Below, piece by piece: positions 6,385-53,706 of a DNA stretch of 64,000 nucleotides (position 1 is the first letter of the stretch; every line of letters starts with the position of its first letter). The stretch covers positions 248,001-312,000 of the forward strand of contig NZ_WJYO01000003.1 of assembly GCF_010994095.1 (NCBI RefSeq). Reading direction: 5' to 3'. The DNA comes from Mumia xiangluensis. Its GTDB lineage: Bacteria; Actinomycetota; Actinomycetes; Propionibacteriales; Nocardioidaceae. The position numbers were made by a program, and so were the translations under genes. The notes beneath the pieces were generated by a model. That model did no database searches. It was given only the letters and a program-made list of their open reading frames with translations, and was not told the DNA's origin.

Positions 6385-7125
6385 ATGCCTGTCACCGAGA
6401 TGTCGCGCACGTCACGAATCCGCTCCAACGTGGCGGCGCTGTCGGCCGCTCAGAAGCCGTCGCGAGGCACCGCCGCGTACTCCCGCTACGTGAACCGCCC
6501 GCTCGGTCGGCGTGTCGCGGCGGTCGCGGCGGCCTTCGGGGTGACGCCCAACCAGGCCACCGCCGTGAGCGCCACGCTCTCGTTCTCAGGCCTCCTGCTC
6601 CTCTGCCTCGCCGACCCCAGCCTCGGCGTCGGCATCGCCGTGTCCCTCCTGCTCGCCGGCGGGTACGTCATGGACTCGGTCGACGGGCAGATCGCGAGGC
6701 TCACCGGCACCGGTTCGCGCAGCGGCGAGTGGCTCGACCACACCGTGGACTGCTTCAAGACCTGTAGCTTCCACCTCGCGGTGCTGATCTCGTTCTACCG
6801 CTTCCCCCCGGTCGAGCCCGAGTGGGCGCTGCTCGTCCCGGTCGGGTTCCAGATCGTCGACATGGTGACGTTCTTCGGGCTGATCATGATGCCGCTGCTG
6901 CGCCAGGGCACCCCGGCTCCGTCCGACGACCTGACTCCGGAGAACCCGCTCCGCACGTGGGCGATCCTGCCGACCGACTACGGCATCTTCTGCTGGGTCT
7001 TCGTGCTGATGGGATGGCCGACTCTCTACTTCGCCGGCTACACCGCGTTGTTCGCGATCAACGCGCTCGTCCTGGTGGTCGTCCTCCGCAAGTGGTGGCG
7101 CGAACTGAAGGCGATGGACCGATGA
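6385..7125 (+). CDS. CDP-alcohol phosphatidyltransferase family membrane protein
   Basis: Integral membrane enzyme of 246 residues that transfers a phospho-alcohol group from a CDP-alcohol. The signature DGx2ARx8Gx3Dx3D is complete (VDGQIARL ... GEWLDHTVD, around residues 95-120), and about six hydrophobic segments surround it. The stop overlaps the ATG of the next glycosyltransferase (ATGA), so the two are translated together. Given the TagD-like neighbour, it may add a polyol or alcohol phosphate to the surface polymer or its lipid carrier. The start (6385 or 6403) is uncertain because no strong Shine-Dalgarno is seen. Confidence 0.82.
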   Translation: MPVTEMSRTSRIRSNVAALSAAQKPSRGTAAYSRYVNRPLGRRVAAVAAAFGVTPNQATAVSATLSFSGLLLLCLADPSLGVGIAVSLLLAGGYVMDSVDGQIARLTGTGSRSGEWLDHTVDCFKTCSFHLAVLISFYRFPPVEPEWALLVPVGFQIVDMVTFFGLIMMPLLRQGTPAPSDDLTPENPLRTWAILPTDYGIFCWVFVLMGWPTLYFAGYTALFAINALVLVVVLRKWWRELKAMDR

Positions 7126-8276
7126 AGGTGGCACTGATCGGCACCCGCGGGGTCCCCGCCCGGTACGGAGGCTTCGAGACCGCAGTCGAGGAGATCGGGC
7201 GACGTCTCGCCGACTCCGGCCACGAGGTCTGGGTCTACTGCCGCACCGTCGAGGACGAGGACCGCCCGCGGACCTACCTCGGGATGCACCTCGTCCACCT
7301 GCCGGCGGTCCGCCGCAAGACCCTCGAGACGCTGTCCCACACCGCGCTGTCCGTCGCGCACGCGGTGACCCGCAGACGGCGCTTCGACGCGGCGGTCGTC
7401 TTCAACGCCGCCAACGCGCCGTTCGTCCCGGGGCTGAGGCTGCGTCGGACCCCCGTGGCCGTCCACGTGGACGGCTTGGAGTGGCAGCGGGCGAAGTGGA
7501 GCGGCGCGGGTCGGCGCTACTACCGGACGGCCGAGTCCGCGTCTGTCCGGTGGGCCGACGCGCTGATCGCCGACGCCGTCGGCATCGCCGACTACTACGA
7601 GGACGAGTTCGGCGTCGAGACCACGTTTGTCCCGTACGGCGCACCGATCCTCGACTCCTCGGCCGCCGACCGGATCGCTGAACTCGACCTGACGCCGGGT
7701 CGCTACCACCTCGTGGTGGCGCGCTTCGAGCCTGAGAACCACGTCCGCGAGATCGTCGCCGGCTATCGCGCGTCGCGCGCCGACCATCCCCTGGTGGTGG
7801 TGGGGTCGGCCCCGTACGCCGACGCTTACACCGCCGAGATCGAGGCGCTCGCCAGCGACGACCCTCGCATCCGCTTGGTCGGCGGGGTCTGGGACCAGGC
7901 TCAGCTCGACCAGCTGTACGCGAACGCTGCAACCTATCTCCACGGCCACTCCGTCGGCGGCACCAACCCGTCGCTGTTGCGAGCGATGGGAGCCGGAGCG
8001 CCGGTCATCGCCTTCGACGTCGTGTTCAACCGTGAGGTCCTCGGCGACGCCGCACCGGTGTTCAGCTCGCCCGACGATCTCGCCCGACTCGTCGAGAAGG
8101 CCGAGGGCGACCCGGAGGGGACGCGCGCGTTGGGTCGATCGCTGCAGGAGCGGGCCTCGCGCCGCTACCGCTGGGAAGACGTCGCAGACGCCTACGCCGA
8201 CCTGCTCGAACGACTGACCCGTGGGTACTCCACCCGTGGCGCAGCATCGGGGCGTCGCCTTGGCCACGCCGACTGA
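7122..8276 (+). CDS. Glycosyltransferase with DUF1972 domain (rhamnosyltransferase-like)
   Basis: A 384-residue GT-B enzyme. It starts with KVALIGTRGVPARYGGFETAVEEIGRRL, the hallmark of DUF1972 proteins such as Cps2T and RgpB-type rhamnosyltransferases. The C-terminal donor-binding half includes HGHSVGGTNPSLLRAMGAGAPVIAFD. The ATG overlaps the stop of the preceding gene, and its end overlaps the start of the flippase, so it sits inside a tight operon. It likely makes an early linkage of the repeat unit. Rhamnose as the sugar is only suggested by the family. Confidence 0.85.
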   Translation: MKVALIGTRGVPARYGGFETAVEEIGRRLADSGHEVWVYCRTVEDEDRPRTYLGMHLVHLPAVRRKTLETLSHTALSVAHAVTRRRRFDAAVVFNAANAPFVPGLRLRRTPVAVHVDGLEWQRAKWSGAGRRYYRTAESASVRWADALIADAVGIADYYEDEFGVETTFVPYGAPILDSSAADRIAELDLTPGRYHLVVARFEPENHVREIVAGYRASRADHPLVVVGSAPYADAYTAEIEALASDDPRIRLVGGVWDQAQLDQLYANAATYLHGHSVGGTNPSLLRAMGAGAPVIAFDVVFNREVLGDAAPVFSSPDDLARLVEKAEGDPEGTRALGRSLQERASRRYRWEDVADAYADLLERLTRGYSTRGAASGRRLGHAD

Positions 8277-47152: not shown

Positions 47153-48280
47153 TCAGCCGCGCCGCCCGCGCGGCAGGACTCGCTCGATGATCTCGGACGG
47201 TGGCAGCTGGCGCGCACGACGCAGCATCGGCTTCAGACCGGACTGTGGCTCGAGCGCGGCCTCGATCGCTCCCGCGACGGCGCGAGCGGCGACGTCGGCG
47301 GGGAGCGACGTCGTACGGGGGTGGGCGCCGCGAGTCCTCGGCGAGCGGGCCGGGTCCACGACGAGCGAGTCGAGTTCGCCGACCACGTGGACACCGCTCG
47401 CGCGAAGGTCGACGACGATCTCCTGGCTCACGTCGCGCAGGTGGGTGATGGCCCACCGCGGCAGCTCCACGCGTGAGGCGTCCGGATCGGGCGGCGCGCT
47501 CTTGAGCATCTGGTTCACCCCCATCCGGACGAACCGCCGGTAGTCGCGAGGATCCCAGTCGCGCGCGCGGAACTCGCGGTTGAGGGCGCGGACGAGCTCG
47601 ACCTCCGGCAGGGTCAGCGACCGGTTGAGGCGGTCCGGCTCGGGCACGAGCACGCCGTCGGGTGCGCCGACCATCGCCTCGAAGACCCGGAGCAGCGCGG
47701 ACCTGTCGCTCTCGTCCACCACCACGACCGTGACCCGGTCCGGACCGACGACGTCAGCCCAACGGCGTACGAGGACGTCGTGGCGGTGCCGCACCCAGAA
47801 CCGGGAGCTGGTGGGGACGTCGTCGAGCAGGATCCCCTTCAGCCATCGGCGCCACGAGCCTCGTCGGCCGTTCTGGACGTACTGCTGCCACTGCGACGGC
47901 ACGATGCGGTCGAGCGCGCGCAACGTGACGACCACGTGGACGCGGTCACGACCGAGATCGGTGACGACCCGCTCGACCGCGGCACCCTGGGCGTCGGCGA
48001 AGAACTCGTTCGAGACCACGACCCGTCCCCGTTCGGGGACCGATGCCACGAACCGCTGCCAGTCACGGATGTCGACCGGCGGCTCACCGGTCATCGGCGA
48101 GCCCCCGGTGACGGCGATCACCGCCTGCGTCGGCGTGCGAGAGCGGCCGGGATAGCTGACCCCCTCGGCTCGGAGCGCCCGACGCGCGCGGAAGAACGCG
48201 CTCTGCACCGCGGTCGTCCCCGTCTTGTGCGGTCCGACGTGGAGGAGCAGTCCGTCCTCCGGCAGCAGTAGGTCACTCAT
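47153..48280 (-). CDS. Sulfotransferase family protein (1)
   Basis: A 375-residue PAPS-dependent sulfotransferase-like protein. LLHVGPHKTGTTAVQSAFF (residues 13-31) is the 5'-phosphosulfate loop, and RVVVSNEFFAD near 85 is in the place of the 3'-phosphate motif. PSQWQQYVQNG and GPDRVTVVVVDESDR follow, as in the other members of this cluster. The substrate is unknown; family members sulfate glycans, lipids or small molecules. Last gene of a four-gene minus-strand operon, with 18 bp to the gene before it. Confidence 0.82.
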   Translation of the reverse strand: MSDLLLPEDGLLLHVGPHKTGTTAVQSAFFRARRALRAEGVSYPGRSRTPTQAVIAVTGGSPMTGEPPVDIRDWQRFVASVPERGRVVVSNEFFADAQGAAVERVVTDLGRDRVHVVVTLRALDRIVPSQWQQYVQNGRRGSWRRWLKGILLDDVPTSSRFWVRHRHDVLVRRWADVVGPDRVTVVVVDESDRSALLRVFEAMVGAPDGVLVPEPDRLNRSLTLPEVELVRALNREFRARDWDPRDYRRFVRMGVNQMLKSAPPDPDASRVELPRWAITHLRDVSQEIVVDLRASGVHVVGELDSLVVDPARSPRTRGAHPRTTSLPADVAARAVAGAIEAALEPQSGLKPMLRRARQLPPSEIIERVLPRGRRG

Positions 48281-48298: not shown

Positions 48299-49453
48299 TC
48301 AGCCCTTGTCGTGCCGGGTGGTCAGCCGGCGGCGGAGCAGACCTGCGAGCTCTCGCGTCGTCAGGTCGTCGACCGGGCGCCACGCGCGACGACGGCTCGC
48401 GTCGATCTTGGGGTCTCCCGTCGCCGCCATCGCCCCGACCATCGCGAGCGAGGCGACCTCGGCCGACACCCGCCTCGCCGACTCGGGCTGCTCGGCGGCG
48501 TCGGCCGCCGCCGGCTCGGCCACGAGGGTGTCCAGGTCGCCGACGACCCGTACGCCGGACGTGCGCAGGTTGGCGACCATCGTCTCGGTGAGTGCGGCCA
48601 TCCGGTCCTGCGCCCAGGCGGGCGTCACGATCTTCGGCTCGTCCTTGCCGGGCTGCCGGGTCCGCAGCTCGTTGATCACGCCGTTGCGGAGGTAGTGGAA
48701 GTGCGCCGACGAGGGCCACTCCGCCTCCCGGTAGAGCCGGTTGAACTCGCGGACGACCTCGACCTCCCCCAGCGTGAGCGACCGGTTCGACAGGTCCTGC
48801 TGGAGCTCGAGCAGGCCGTCGGGGAGCCCGACGAGCTGTTCGAACACCCGCAGCACGAGCTCGTGGTCGCGCGGGTCGAGCACGACGACGGTGACGTTCT
48901 CCGGACCGACGACGTCCGCCCAGCGCTTCGTCAGCTGGTCGTGACGGTGGCGGACCCAGAACGTCGGCGTGAGCCCCTTGCGCGGCTCGTCGCTGAACAT
49001 CTCGCGGAGCCACTCGTCGTACGAGATGTCGTAGCCGGTCTGGACGTACTGCTGCCACTGCGACGGGATGAGCCGGTCGAGCGGGCGCAGCGTCAGGACG
49101 ACGTGCATGTCCTCGCGGCCGATCTCGTCGACGAGGCGACGCACCTTCTGCGGGCGCGCCTGGGCGAGGTACTCGCTGCTGAGCACGACGCGCTGTCGGC
49201 CGGCGGCCTCCATGTCGGCGAGCAGCGCGTTCCACTCGGTGAGATCGGGCTCCGGTCCACCGAGGAAGCCCTTGCCGCCGACGGCGGCGACCACCGCGAG
49301 CATCTCGTGGCGCCGGCGGCCCGCGTAGTGGACGCCGTGCTCCTCGAGCTGAGGACGAGCAGCGTGGAACGAGGCCTGGAGCGAGGTCGTCGCGGTCTTC
49401 GGCGGACCGATGTGGACCAGTCGGACACCCTCGGGCAGGAGCAGGTCGCTCAT
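48299..49453 (-). CDS. Sulfotransferase family protein (2)
   Basis: A 384-residue paralog of its neighbours. The 5'-phosphosulfate loop reads VHIGPPKTATTSLQASF, with Pro and Ala where the others have His and Gly, and VVLSSEYLAQA is the 3'-phosphate-like motif. LRPLDRLIPSQWQQYVQTG and PENVTVVVLDPRDH are shared with the first member. The last 60 residues are a helical tail rich in Ala and Arg. ATG at 49453 overlaps the stop of the small upstream gene (ATGA), so they are translated together. Confidence 0.82.
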   Translation of the reverse strand: MSDLLLPEGVRLVHIGPPKTATTSLQASFHAARPQLEEHGVHYAGRRRHEMLAVVAAVGGKGFLGGPEPDLTEWNALLADMEAAGRQRVVLSSEYLAQARPQKVRRLVDEIGREDMHVVLTLRPLDRLIPSQWQQYVQTGYDISYDEWLREMFSDEPRKGLTPTFWVRHRHDQLTKRWADVVGPENVTVVVLDPRDHELVLRVFEQLVGLPDGLLELQQDLSNRSLTLGEVEVVREFNRLYREAEWPSSAHFHYLRNGVINELRTRQPGKDEPKIVTPAWAQDRMAALTETMVANLRTSGVRVVGDLDTLVAEPAAADAAEQPESARRVSAEVASLAMVGAMAATGDPKIDASRRRAWRPVDDLTTRELAGLLRRRLTTRHDKG

Positions 49454-49830
49454 CGCTTCCCTCCGCCGCGAAGCACCCGGCGCGCGAGGATGTCGGACAG
49501 CTGGGCGAACCCGAGCTGCGACGGCGGCCGGCTCCCGACAGGAAGGTCGGCGGCGTCCTCGGACCCGGCGTCGGCGGGGTCGGGCACGAGCGGAGCGTGC
49601 TCCCGCTGGAGCGCCTCGGCGACTACGACGGCGACGGCGGCCGCGACCTTCTCGGGTGAGACGGTCGTGTCTCCCTCGATGCTGTGCGGGTCGGCACCCG
49701 CCTCGACCCAGGCGCCGGCGACGCGACGACGAGCGTCCCTGCTCCACAGCCGCTTCTGCGCCTCGGCGTCGACCAGACGCAAGACCTCGGCGTCCGCCGC
49801 CGTGGCAGGCCCCGTGCCGGCAGGCCCCAT
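49450..49830 (-). CDS. Small protein in the sulfotransferase operon, tail-like
   Basis: A 126-residue Ala-rich helical protein that I do not recognise. It has a good AGGAG Shine-Dalgarno and a stop coupled to the next gene. Its second half (VSPEKVAAAVAVVVAEAL ... QLSDILARRVLRGGGKR) resembles the C-terminal tails of the three sulfotransferases beside it (for example VSAEVASLAMVGAMAA ... LAGLLRRRL), but the P-loop and catalytic part are missing. It could be a truncated paralog or a partner subunit. Confidence 0.6.
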   Translation of the reverse strand: MGPAGTGPATAADAEVLRLVDAEAQKRLWSRDARRRVAGAWVEAGADPHSIEGDTTVSPEKVAAAVAVVVAEALQREHAPLVPDPADAGSEDAADLPVGSRPPSQLGFAQLSDILARRVLRGGGKR

Positions 49831-49885: not shown

Positions 49886-51886
49886 TCAACGCGCCGGGGA
49901 CCGCCTGTCACGCCGGCCGGCGAGGCGAGAGACGAGGTCGCGCACGGAGGGTACGGCGTCGTCCTCGCGCGCACGCCACGCCTGCCTGCGTGCGTCGTCG
50001 ATCTCGGGGACGCCGGCAGCCTCGATGGCACCGACCAGGGCTGCTGCCGCCAGCCCCGCGCTCACCTCCGGCGCAGCCTCTGGGCCCGGGGCGGCGGGGG
50101 CCGCGGCGAGCAGACTCTCGACGCGGCCGACCACCGTCACACCACGCTCGCGCAGCACGTCGACCGCAGCCCGCGACGACGCGGCGATCTCGGGGTGCGC
50201 CCAGCCCGGGAGGGCCACGGGCCGTTCACCGGGTGCGGGTCTGCGAGCCCGCAGCGGCTCGACGACGCCGCCGACGACGAACCGTGCACGTTCCTCGGCG
50301 GACCACCCCGCCGTGCCGGCGATGCGGTTGAGCTCCCGGACGATCTCGAGCTCGACGAGGGTGAGATCGCGACCGGGCGCGGGGGCGTCAGCGACGACCA
50401 CGGTCACCTGCTCCGCACCGGCTGCCTCGATCGCGTCGAGCACGACGGCCTCGTAGCGCAGCTCTGGGCGGACGTGACGGCCTTCGTGGTGTCCCTCGCT
50501 GGTCGGGTCTGCGCTAGATCGGCCGGCCAGCCAGTCGTCGTACGTGTCGACGCCGCCGGCCTCGACGTGGCGCTGCCATCCCCGGGACGCGGCGAGCTCG
50601 GGGGCGCCCAGGGTGAGGACGACGCCGCCGCGGGCTGCGCGGTCCACGACGGGCGGGTCGACACGGGAGGTCGTGGCACCCGCGCCGGCATCGGGCGTAC
50701 GCCGTCGCGCCCGACGTCGCGCCCGCTGCGCGATGAGCCTCGCCGTCTCGCCCACCCCGGGGTCGTCGTTGCGCGTCAGCCGCAGGTGCCTGAGCGACGC
50801 TGGGTCGCCGTCGGGGTCGGCGACGATCGGCTTGGCGGGGCCCTTGCGCGCACGCTCGGCGACGGCGGCGACACCGTTGGCGACCGAGCGGGGCGACGAC
50901 GTGGCGAAGCGCTCGCGCAGCTGGTCGTCGGGCAGTGAACGGACGGTGCCGGCGTCCAGCCGCAGCGTGCTCGGGTCACCGATCACGCGGACCGGGAGGG
51001 ACTCAAGCGCCTCGACGTTGCGGTTGCTGGCCTCGACGACGGCGTCGACCCATCGTTCGGGGATCATCAGCTTCGGGGTTCCGGCAGCCGGGGCCGGCAG
51101 CTTGAGTCCGCGCACGGCGGAGTTGCGGATCAGCCTCAGGTGGGTCTCGGCCGCCCAGCGGCGTTGGCGCGCGATCCTGTTCACCCGCCTGATCGCAGCG
51201 GCCCCACCCGGGCTCAGCGACAGGTTGTCGGGGCTGTCGCCGGCCTTGAGCGTCCCGCGGGGCAGACCGGTCATGTCCTCGAAGACGTCGAGCAGCCACC
51301 GCCGGTCGGTCTCGTCGACCACGACGACGGTCACGTTCTCGGGACCCACGACCTCGGCCCACTTCATGGTGAGGTCGGTGTAGTTCTGACGCTCCCAGAA
51401 GTTGTGGTCCGGCTTCGACAGCACGTCGCCGATCCAGCGGAGGTACGACTGCTGCCTGCCGTTGGTCAGCGACTGCTGCCACGACGACGGGAGCAGCCGG
51501 TCGAACCGGCGCACCATCCGCACGACGTGGACACGATCGGCGCCGAGGTCGTCACGGACCCGCGCGGCGGTGTCGACCGACGCCCCGTCGAGCGACTCGC
51601 AGGACAGGACCACGCGGTCGTCGCCGGCCGCGTCGATCGACGCGACGAGACGCTCCCAGGTCCTGACCGAACCATGTCGCGACCCGAGCCGGCCGGCACC
51701 GGGCATCAGCGAGCGGACCTCGGCGTACGGTTGCAGGCCGCGGCCCGCGTACACGACGCCGTGCTCGGCGGTGGCGTCACGGTTCAGGTGGAACGCACGC
51801 TGGACAGCCGTGGTGCCGGTCTTGTGCGGGCCGATGTGGACCAGCCGGGTGCCCTCGGGGAGCAGCAGGCCATCGGCATCGCTCAT
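49886..51886 (-). CDS. Fused sulfotransferase with a second, P-loop-less sulfotransferase-like domain (3)
   Basis: A 666-residue protein about twice the family length. Domain 1 (about 1-340) is complete: VHIGPHKTGTTAVQRAFH (16-33), RVVLSCESLDG (91-101), RRFDRLLPSSWQQSLTNG and PENVTVVVVDETDR. A linker rich in Arg (340-415) follows. Domain 2 (about 420-660) aligns with the middle and C-terminal parts of the family (VVLTLGAPELAASRGWQRHVEAGG; EQVTVVVADAPAPGRDLTLVELEIVRELNRI; a tail like the neighbours) but has no 5'-phosphosulfate loop, so it cannot bind PAPS in the usual way. First gene of the operon; start at 51886. Confidence 0.8.
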   Translation of the reverse strand: MSDADGLLLPEGTRLVHIGPHKTGTTAVQRAFHLNRDATAEHGVVYAGRGLQPYAEVRSLMPGAGRLGSRHGSVRTWERLVASIDAAGDDRVVLSCESLDGASVDTAARVRDDLGADRVHVVRMVRRFDRLLPSSWQQSLTNGRQQSYLRWIGDVLSKPDHNFWERQNYTDLTMKWAEVVGPENVTVVVVDETDRRWLLDVFEDMTGLPRGTLKAGDSPDNLSLSPGGAAAIRRVNRIARQRRWAAETHLRLIRNSAVRGLKLPAPAAGTPKLMIPERWVDAVVEASNRNVEALESLPVRVIGDPSTLRLDAGTVRSLPDDQLRERFATSSPRSVANGVAAVAERARKGPAKPIVADPDGDPASLRHLRLTRNDDPGVGETARLIAQRARRRARRRTPDAGAGATTSRVDPPVVDRAARGGVVLTLGAPELAASRGWQRHVEAGGVDTYDDWLAGRSSADPTSEGHHEGRHVRPELRYEAVVLDAIEAAGAEQVTVVVADAPAPGRDLTLVELEIVRELNRIAGTAGWSAEERARFVVGGVVEPLRARRPAPGERPVALPGWAHPEIAASSRAAVDVLRERGVTVVGRVESLLAAAPAAPGPEAAPEVSAGLAAAALVGAIEAAGVPEIDDARRQAWRAREDDAVPSVRDLVSRLAGRRDRRSPAR

Positions 51887-52047
51887 ACGAGCTCCTCTGT
51901 CATGGTCGTCGCCGTCCAGCACGCGGTACGTCAGCGGCGGACGACCTCACACGATACAGGGCGCGAACGCCCGTCCTCGCCCGCTGCTGGAGGCAGCGTG
52001 GCCCCGCTCTGTGCCACCATTTGTCCAATCGCCCGCAAGGAGTCGTC

Positions 52048-53706
52048 ATGGCTGGTTCCGTTCACTTCCGCCGATCCCTCAGAACGCCGGTGATGCTGGT
52101 TGCCGCGGCGATGGTCGCCGGCCTGCTGCTGGCCGCGCCACCGGCGACGGCCGCCCCGAAGGGGACCTCGACGATCACCGGGAAGGTGATCCTGGCCGAC
52201 ATCGGCGGCCGGATCGACACCCTGGTCTACGCGTACCGTCGCAGTCCGTCGACCGGTCGGTGGGTCCACGTGGGCTCGACGATCACCAGCAAGAAGGGCA
52301 GGTTCTCGATCAAGCGGCTCCCTGCAGGCAAGTACCGGCTCCTCGCGATGCGCGGGACCCACGCCGACCGCTGGTTCGGCGGCACGCCCTCGTGGGAGGG
52401 CGAACGACACGCCCGCACGCTCACCAAGACCGGTGGCAAGTCCTTCACCGTGAAGGACGGCAAGGTCTCGAGAGGGCACCGCACGGTCCTCCCCGCCGCA
52501 GGCAACCCCAGGGTCACGTTCGAGGACGACCGCGGCCTTCAGCCGGTGGAGGGCAAGCTCTACTTCCGGCGGACGGCGGACGGAGTCAGCGGCGGCCGGT
52601 GGCGGGCGCACGCGACCGCGTACCGGACGGACCTCCTCAAGCTCCAGCCCGGCTGGCACACCCTGAAGCACCGTGGGATCGGCAGCGCCTGGCGCACGTC
52701 ACGGATCTATGTGAGGGCCGACCGGACGCCCATCACTCTCAAGGTCCCCGCGACGATCCGGTCGCGCGGCTTTGCTCCGTCGGTCGCCCATCCCTTGTTC
52801 CCGACGGTCGGGAACACCGTGAAGGTGAGGTCGCTCCACGGTCTCTTCAACTACCCGGCCAACCTCCTGACGTTCGGCTACCAGTGGTTCCGCTCCGGGG
52901 TCGCCATCCCCGGCGCTACCGGTCAGAGCTACACGATCGCCGACGCTGACCGCGGCAAGTCCCTGCGGGTCCGCCTGACCGCGTCACGTCCCGGGTACGC
53001 CCCGGTCAGCATCGACTCACGCAGCGCCGAGGTGGCGCGGAGCACGACGACGACCACGCTGGCACTCTCGCGGAGCAGCGCACGATTCGGCGAGACCGAC
53101 GCGATCACCGCGACGGCCCAGGTCACGGCTGCTGACGGCGGTCCGGTGGCCGGGACCGTGCACTTCAGCGCCGGACCGCAGTGCGAGGACGGCGACGACC
53201 TGTGCCCCTCCGTCGGGTGGGATGCCAGCGCCGCCGTGAACGCCTCCGGTGCCGCCGCCGTGCGCCTCCCGCGCAGACTGAGCGTGGTGCGTCAGATCGA
53301 GGCGTCGTTCGAGCCCTCCGTGGCGCCGGGCTACGCCGCGCCGTCGAACGCCCGAACACCGATCACCGTCGTTCCTCGCGTCTCTCGTACGACGGCGACC
53401 CTGCGCTCGACGTCGATCCGACGCACCCAGCGCGCGAAGGTCACGGTGCGCGTCTCGGTGCCCGGCGGCATCAAGTGGCACCAGGTCGTGGGCACGGTCG
53501 TCGTCACCGCCGACGGCAAGCGGGTGGGCACCTGGAAGCGTGGCCGCTTCACCAAGGAGGTCACGGTCAAGCTCGCCCGGCTGCGGCGCGGCACCTACAA
53601 GATTCGCGCCCACTTCATCGCCGCGGGAGCACCCGTGGGTCTCTACAAGCTGGAGAGCGCCGCGAAGTCCAGCCGGAGCAAGCCGGTGAAGCTGCGCGTG
53701 CGCTGA
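52048..53706 (+). CDS. Secreted Ig-like repeat protein
   Basis: A 552-residue exported protein. Residues 1-36 are a signal peptide (VMLVAAAMVAGLLLAAPPATAAP). Next come a carboxypeptidase-regulatory-like/SdrD-type fold (TSTITGKVILADIGGRIDTLVYAY ... RFSIKRLPAGKYRLLAMRG), a domain of the type YQWFRSGVAIPGATGQSYTIADADRGKSLRVRLTA, then two Ig-like (Big) domains that end in a Lys/Arg-rich tail. There is one Cys pair (near 405-415). ATG 52048 has AAGGAG upstream. It is divergent from the sulfotransferase operon. Function unknown; probably an adhesin-like surface protein. Confidence 0.78.
   Translation: MAGSVHFRRSLRTPVMLVAAAMVAGLLLAAPPATAAPKGTSTITGKVILADIGGRIDTLVYAYRRSPSTGRWVHVGSTITSKKGRFSIKRLPAGKYRLLAMRGTHADRWFGGTPSWEGERHARTLTKTGGKSFTVKDGKVSRGHRTVLPAAGNPRVTFEDDRGLQPVEGKLYFRRTADGVSGGRWRAHATAYRTDLLKLQPGWHTLKHRGIGSAWRTSRIYVRADRTPITLKVPATIRSRGFAPSVAHPLFPTVGNTVKVRSLHGLFNYPANLLTFGYQWFRSGVAIPGATGQSYTIADADRGKSLRVRLTASRPGYAPVSIDSRSAEVARSTTTTTLALSRSSARFGETDAITATAQVTAADGGPVAGTVHFSAGPQCEDGDDLCPSVGWDASAAVNASGAAAVRLPRRLSVVRQIEASFEPSVAPGYAAPSNARTPITVVPRVSRTTATLRSTSIRRTQRAKVTVRVSVPGGIKWHQVVGTVVVTADGKRVGTWKRGRFTKEVTVKLARLRRGTYKIRAHFIAAGAPVGLYKLESAAKSSRSKPVKLRVR

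Follow-up and report, generated by a model that had tools for sequence, protein, structure and literature searches.

A sulfotransferase fused in frame to a degenerate sulfotransferase paralog in Mumia xiangluensis

The sulfotransferase array and its fused gene

The window analysed here, a stretch of 64,000 nucleotides from the genome of the soil actinobacterium Mumia xiangluensis, contains an operon-like row of four minus-strand genes flanked by rsmI and metG. We refer to these genes as A, sml, B and C:

A, 49886-51886, minus strand: fused gene, 666 aa
sml, 49450-49830, minus strand: 126-aa truncated relic of an A-type sulfotransferase, whose stop codon overlaps the start of B (ATGA)
B, 48299-49453, minus strand: intact paralogous sulfotransferase of the same family, 384 aa
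C, 47153-48280, minus strand: intact paralogous sulfotransferase of the same family, 375 aa

The ATG start of A at 51886 has GAGGAG on its 5′ side, and a GTG start would extend the gene to 49886-51922; residue numbers refer to the 666-aa protein that begins with the ATG. AGGAGC stands 5′ of the sml start, and 18 nt separate B from C. We set aside PMT and rsmI as functional clues, since their place beside the array is a general actinobacterial arrangement. The array is also adjoined by a gene on the plus strand (52021-53706) for a 561-aa, secreted-looking, Ig-repeat-like protein that has no Pfam match; its relatives adjoin the array in three other Mumia genomes (G001, G004 and G005).

A preliminary description of this stretch had proposed that A encodes a sulfotransferase fused to a degenerate second one, with bounds at residues 1-340 and 420-660. 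The fusion is borne out, in that the open reading frame runs uninterrupted from start to stop and both halves are homologous to the same family (see below), and the two units stand; their limits are corrected to 1-~404 and ~405-666. The features of the fused gene are as follows:

50675..51886, minus strand: first unit (residues 1-404), a complete A-type sulfotransferase with a C-terminal tail of its own
51806..51835, minus strand: 5′-phosphosulfate (PSB) loop IGPHKTGTTA (residues 18-27), invariant or almost invariant across 53 members of the family
51485..51511, minus strand: 3′-phosphate motif R126-RFDRLLP-S134, with R126 invariant and S134 nearly invariant in the same 53 members
50618..50692, minus strand: linker (about residues 399-423) with no stop, occupying the place of A's stop codon and of the N-terminus lost from B
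49886..50674, minus strand: second unit (residues 405-666 plus stop), a degenerate B-type sulfotransferase reduced to its C-terminal two thirds
50582..50608, minus strand: degenerate 3′-phosphate motif (G427...R435 for R...S) in the family alignment
50372..50389, minus strand: internal deletion of ~25 residues, between ~500 and ~505 and before the NRS motif, in the alignment with B and the family

The openness of the frame is itself weak evidence, as GC content is 73%, 3.7% of shuffled sequences stay open, and one antisense frame is likewise free of stops. The two halves agree in their coding statistics. We also considered that an assembly or sequencing error might have joined two genes, an idea that gains from the separate genes found at the same place in relatives. 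Single-domain A genes followed by an intact B (G003 and G004) or overlapping a separate degenerate gene (G002) do exist in other Mumia species, so that the refuting case set out in the preliminary description applies in part. No repeat at the junction is longer than 15 nt, the longest exact stretch common to B and the second half is 13 nt, the linker is in frame and codon-like, there is no second copy in the genome, and a similar architecture is present in two genomes of other species. An assembly artefact is nevertheless unlikely, and we consider any error of this sort very improbable.

A complete and a degenerate sulfotransferase unit

Residues 1-404 correspond to one whole single-domain gene. 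Orthologs in other Mumia species (G003, 51% identity; G004, 50%; G002, 42%) span about positions 14-416 in GTG-start numbering and end around query residue 400-416; because the C-terminal tail belongs to these single-domain proteins, we set the first unit to run to ~404. The A clade, comprising A, its Mumia orthologs and two Nocardioides proteins, has support of 99/97, and over residues 1-308 the identity with paralog B is 41%. By sequence comparison the first half carries every PAPS motif of the family: among the 53 members, G19 and P20 of the PSB loop are invariant and K22-T26 nearly so, and these residues together with R126 and S134 confirm the earlier statement that this part holds the whole PAPS apparatus.

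In the first half, the AlphaFold2 model is confident over about residues 10-340, with blocks mostly above 90. The top ten structural matches of this half by VIA-align are all sulfotransferases (Z 13.3-14.9), although Foldseek alone ranked candidates weakly and gave no convincing match. Over residues 10-312, the predicted fold most resembles the heparan sulfate enzymes, namely 3-O-sulfotransferase 3 (Z 14.9 over 223 residues, 3.3 Å) and the sulfotransferase domain of NDST1 (1nst, Z 14.8), with which it shares a KTGTT-type PAPS loop. These enzymes differ from the first half in sequence (about 12-14% identity), and NDST is joined to a deacetylase, whereas the Mumia protein is joined to a second, dead sulfotransferase. 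The nearest bacterial structure is the Alicyclobacillus acidocaldarius sulfotransferase 3rnl (Z 14.5), which has a single domain and is 14-16% identical. Judged by its motifs and predicted fold, residues 1-404 are a complete, divergent PAPS-sulfotransferase with predicted activity.

Searches of Pfam, NCBIfam and PDB sequences with the fused protein returned no usable match. The fused protein gave no hit to the Pfam family Sulfotransfer_4 (PF17784) at the curated cut-off; its best relatives reached E 5e-4, which is below threshold, and B of the window scored 14.3 bits against a cut-off of 22.8. The family is one without its own Pfam or NCBIfam model, and no PDB sequence matches it.

Residues 422-661 align with residues 118-383 of B at 35% identity (E 1e-28), and B is matched on to its end. 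A profile built from the second half and its G002 relative matches the B/C family with a probability of 99.8% (E 3e-29), so this match is not due to chance. In a tree of the C-terminal halves, the second half of the fused protein stands next to the B clade; its descent within that clade is not rejected (p 0.08), and a one-clade test speaks against its descent from the A-type enzyme itself (p 0.03). On sequence comparison, the second half derives from the neighbouring B-type paralog.

This unit has nonetheless lost much. As had been proposed for the 5′-phosphosulfate loop, the equivalent of B residues 1-117, that is the first ~115 residues including the PAPS loop, is absent. We ruled out that this missing part sits in another frame, as just ~75 nt lie between the units. 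The 37 near-invariant family positions that are present divide into 23 kept and 14 changed, the latter including R427G, P434S, S435R, F472V, W473R, H476L, H478Y, R484D, W485A, N505G and S507D, and five more fall within the internal deletion; intact controls retain 38/46 to 42/42 such positions. Lost are the 3′-phosphate Arg/Ser with its neighbours, the FWxRHRHDxLxxRW motif, the N and S of the NRS motif, and one Asp. Changes thus cluster in cofactor and active-site motifs, and tail and scaffold positions stay, among them the fold-type residues W437, W452, P560-W562-A563, G582-V583 and G587. The preliminary description had both middle and tail motifs preserved: the helical tail is, and the middle motif is not. 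Homologous to an active family and devoid of the catalytic residues, the second half fits the definition of a pseudoenzyme. That both halves are derived from sulfotransferases might suggest a bifunctional enzyme with two active sites, but a second half that lacks the PSB loop, the 3′-phosphate Arg/Ser, the FWxRHRHD motif and the NRS motif leaves that idea next to no chance.

Since the first strand and the P-loop region are missing, the sequence of the second half is one that cannot form a full sulfotransferase fold. Modelled alone on an alignment of intact relatives, from which the fold is partly borrowed, it reaches a mean pLDDT of 81.5, and in the full-length model it is less certain. Three sulfotransferases lead its VIA-align matches (Z 6.0-6.1 over 127-139 residues, next 3.3), with 3rnl again the best bacterial one (Z 6.0), all for a model that leans on those relatives; Foldseek alone found no convincing match for it. 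Given this dependence on intact relatives, we regard the model as compatible with a partial sulfotransferase fold rather than as proof of one.

Relatives and constraint on the degenerate pieces

We searched for relatives in 200 family-wide genomes, 216 Nocardioides genomes and 58-genome relative sets; the genus Mumia was represented by five further genomes. In three other Mumia species (G002, G003 and G004), the A gene ends after the first half. Two of these (G003 and G004) have A followed by an intact B, and the degenerate partner is absent. A separate gene of 275 aa in G002 overlaps A and encodes a degenerate B-type enzyme. It lacks both the N-terminal loop and the internal region that is also missing from the second half of the fused protein, and these two sequences group together next to the B clade with support of 85/89. 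This grouping could reflect common origin or repeated decay, and it may be a product of long-branch attraction. G001 and G005 lack A and have kept sml.

Outside Mumia, Nocardioides sp. Iso805N (G206) and a second Nocardioides genome (G337) encode an A-type enzyme and a tail domain of ~160 aa in one chain. Both fusion genes share a conserved genomic setting that includes glmM, coaA-like and glmS genes, named from our own reading of the sequences, and no other copy lies near them. With a profile of the C-terminal halves, the tails score 17.0 (G206) and 8.3 bits, at most one of 2000 shuffles scoring as high; the G206 tail outscores all 2000, and just 2 of 10,522 background windows beat it, both being sml genes. 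As direct comparison of the tail with the sulfotransferase by hhalign is weak (probability 18%), we grade homology to the sulfotransferase second half as likely rather than proven, and the tail could have another origin. The layout of an A-type enzyme with a degenerate B-type unit probably recurs, by these sequence scores, in two Nocardioides species, and with this pair found we set aside a fusion confined to one genome. The search for the same fusion in other actinobacteria has therefore yielded a probable match, and the catalytic plus pseudo-enzyme layout first proposed is supported by homology, active-site loss, predicted folds and this probable recurrence. A scan of ~85,000 species genomes, which requires conserved peptides and of which the best 80 loci were taken, gave no further fusion of the kind among 94 sulfotransferase ORFs, a number that counts the two Nocardioides fusions.

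The Nocardioides pair, rather than the window's own copy, supplies the selection figures for a fused tail. Between the two species, the tail is 50% identical and the catalytic half 83%; dN is 0.434 in the tail and 0.107 in the catalytic half, about four times faster, and dN/dS is 0.60 and 0.19, respectively. The pN/pS of the tail, whose homology to the second half of the Mumia fusion is likely but weak, is 0.71 (CI 0.57-0.94), a value that protein-guided alignment biases slightly downwards. In neutral simulations the mean lies at 0.98-1.15, with a value this small in 0-1 of 200. With pN/pS below nearly all neutral simulations, and in frame in both species despite several indels, the tail appears weakly constrained, not free.

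These observations bear on whether the second half is a decaying passenger: a B copy on its way out would have been joined to A as the tandem array turned over, and the harmless tail would persist through inertia and the scarcity of stop codons at 73% GC. Such decay would account for the lost active-site residues and two large deletions, for the other Mumia species without a fused second half, for the low tail identity in Nocardioides and for an array truncated repeatedly (sml and the 275-aa gene of G002), and the open antisense frame shows that openness is cheap. It sits less well with the sub-neutral pN/pS of the Nocardioides tail, its maintained frame, the preferential retention of scaffold positions and the strong constraint on sml described next. 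We judge this explanation possible, at clearly less than an even chance.

The sml protein aligns with the A tails of G003 and G004 (z 9.9) and is also found by the C-half profile. It is conserved in G001 and G005, and copies of this truncated relic were located as follows:

window, 49450-49830, minus strand
locus L035, 6122-6502, minus strand
locus L039, 8107-8499, plus strand

Across three Mumia species, dN/dS is 0.31-0.32 for sml, 0.23-0.33 for intact C and 0.12-0.16 for B, and none of 200 neutral simulations reaches the sml value. From these rates sml is clearly under purifying selection, so truncated fragments can be kept as proteins. We infer that the row of A with a dead B, followed by a dead A (sml) with B, is the trace of a duplicated A-B pair that underwent reciprocal decay.

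Small genes resembling the C-terminal tail alone also occur as immediate neighbours, on one side or the other, of an intact sulfotransferase gene in Nocardioides and in one more Nocardioidaceae genome (L159, 6720-7004; L165, about 6660-6995; L040, about 7327-7668; all plus strand). In a Streptomyces member (L148, 6905-8136, plus strand), the tail continues in another frame (7909-8136), a frameshift having replaced it.

Stand-alone tail-like proteins coupled to intact enzymes (sml, L159, L165 and L040), together with the fact that what remains is the helical C-terminal region with a basic stretch at its end, would also fit a substrate-binding or tethering module that grips the acceptor polymer or anchors the enzyme to membrane or wall machinery. 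However, the same tail is found in intact single-domain members and so is no special addition, and the Pfam and NCBIfam searches recognised no known binding domain. We think such a module rather improbable.

A possible accessory role and the acceptor

The explanation we favour, to which we give about an even chance, is a chimera made from tandem genes in which the dead half serves the active one as an accessory pseudo-subunit. A deletion between tandem sulfotransferase genes would have cost an A-type enzyme, its PAPS site complete, its stop codon and joined it in frame to a B-type paralog that lacked its first ~115 residues. Homologous sulfotransferases commonly dimerise, and A and B may once have acted as partners. 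The dead half would then keep the partner surface, built of C-terminal helices; as a pseudo-protomer without catalysis of its own, it would support the active half in cis, either by stabilising it or by shaping its acceptor cleft. In favour of this reading are the B origin of the second half, the concentration of its losses in cofactor and active-site motifs, the separate degenerate B-type gene of G002, the probable Nocardioides recurrence with its sub-neutral tail, and the constraint on sml; the recurrence suggests that the dead half is kept as a helper. Against it stand G003 and G004, which manage without a degenerate partner, the fast change of the Nocardioides tail relative to the catalytic half, the weak similarity of that tail to a sulfotransferase, and the partly borrowed fold of the second-half model; the passenger model ranks close behind.

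The pairing of a catalytic and a dead homologous domain in one chain is well known for kinases and phosphatases, as in Janus kinases and tandem tyrosine phosphatase domains (PMC5106787); those are other enzyme classes, and the Mumia dead domain lacks over a third of its length. Cooperation of active and dead paralogs, as proposed for A and B, is known from trypanosomatid deoxyhypusine synthase, in which the dead paralog is a separate gene whose product forms a complex with 3000-fold activation (PMC3663545). We found no description of a sulfotransferase joined to a dead sulfotransferase in the open-access full-text literature.

As to the acceptor, a gene for a bifunctional protein (IspD/TarI-like plus short-chain dehydrogenase, CDP-ribitol type) lies within 2.5 kb of the sulfotransferase gene, mostly within about 400 bp, at 50 of the 80 best loci, many of the Streptomyces ones being a single ortholog group and so not independent. 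These loci are mainly from Streptomyces, with several from Nocardioides, and examples from loci L099-L178 are:

L159, 5208-6653, minus strand: CDP-ribitol-type gene
L148, 8414-9754, plus strand: CDP-ribitol-type gene

The score with the NCBIfam ribitol-5-phosphate cytidylyltransferase model is just under the cut-off (150.3 vs 166), and CDP-glycerol glycerophosphotransferases are present at some of these loci (Nocardioides). No teichoic acid or CDP-ribitol-type gene lies beside the window's own array. Because relatives adjoin CDP-ribitol-type genes and the predicted fold is that of glycan sulfotransferases, the evidence suggests that the acceptor may be a sugar or polyol unit in a polymer of the cell envelope, and hints at wall polymer sulfation. 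For the actinomycete Actinoplanes, a recent paper predicts a sulfated polysaccharide on the basis of sulfotransferase genes required to form sporangia (PMC13390465). A metagenome contig from a putative Chloroflexi bin (L125, 496-4717, plus strand) carries three tandem sulfotransferase genes of the family studied here, so the family and its tandem habit may extend beyond Actinomycetota.

In a broader reading, which we consider unlikely, this actinobacterial family would sulfate a ribitol- or glycerol-phosphate wall polymer, and Nocardioidaceae would use its dead or tail-only pieces (the fused second halves, the overlapping 275-aa gene and the tail proteins of 94-126 aa) as dedicated accessory subunits, the reciprocal decay of an ancestral A-B pair into A with a dead B and a live B with a dead A (sml) being the trace. 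The locus and its relatives form a decay series of one enzyme, from intact through an overlapping dead gene and a fused dead half to a tail-only gene, and are thus natural material for testing why a dead paralog is kept. That the family stands next to genes of the CDP-ribitol type in many Streptomyces and Nocardioides would, in turn, imply sulfated wall polymers in these bacteria.
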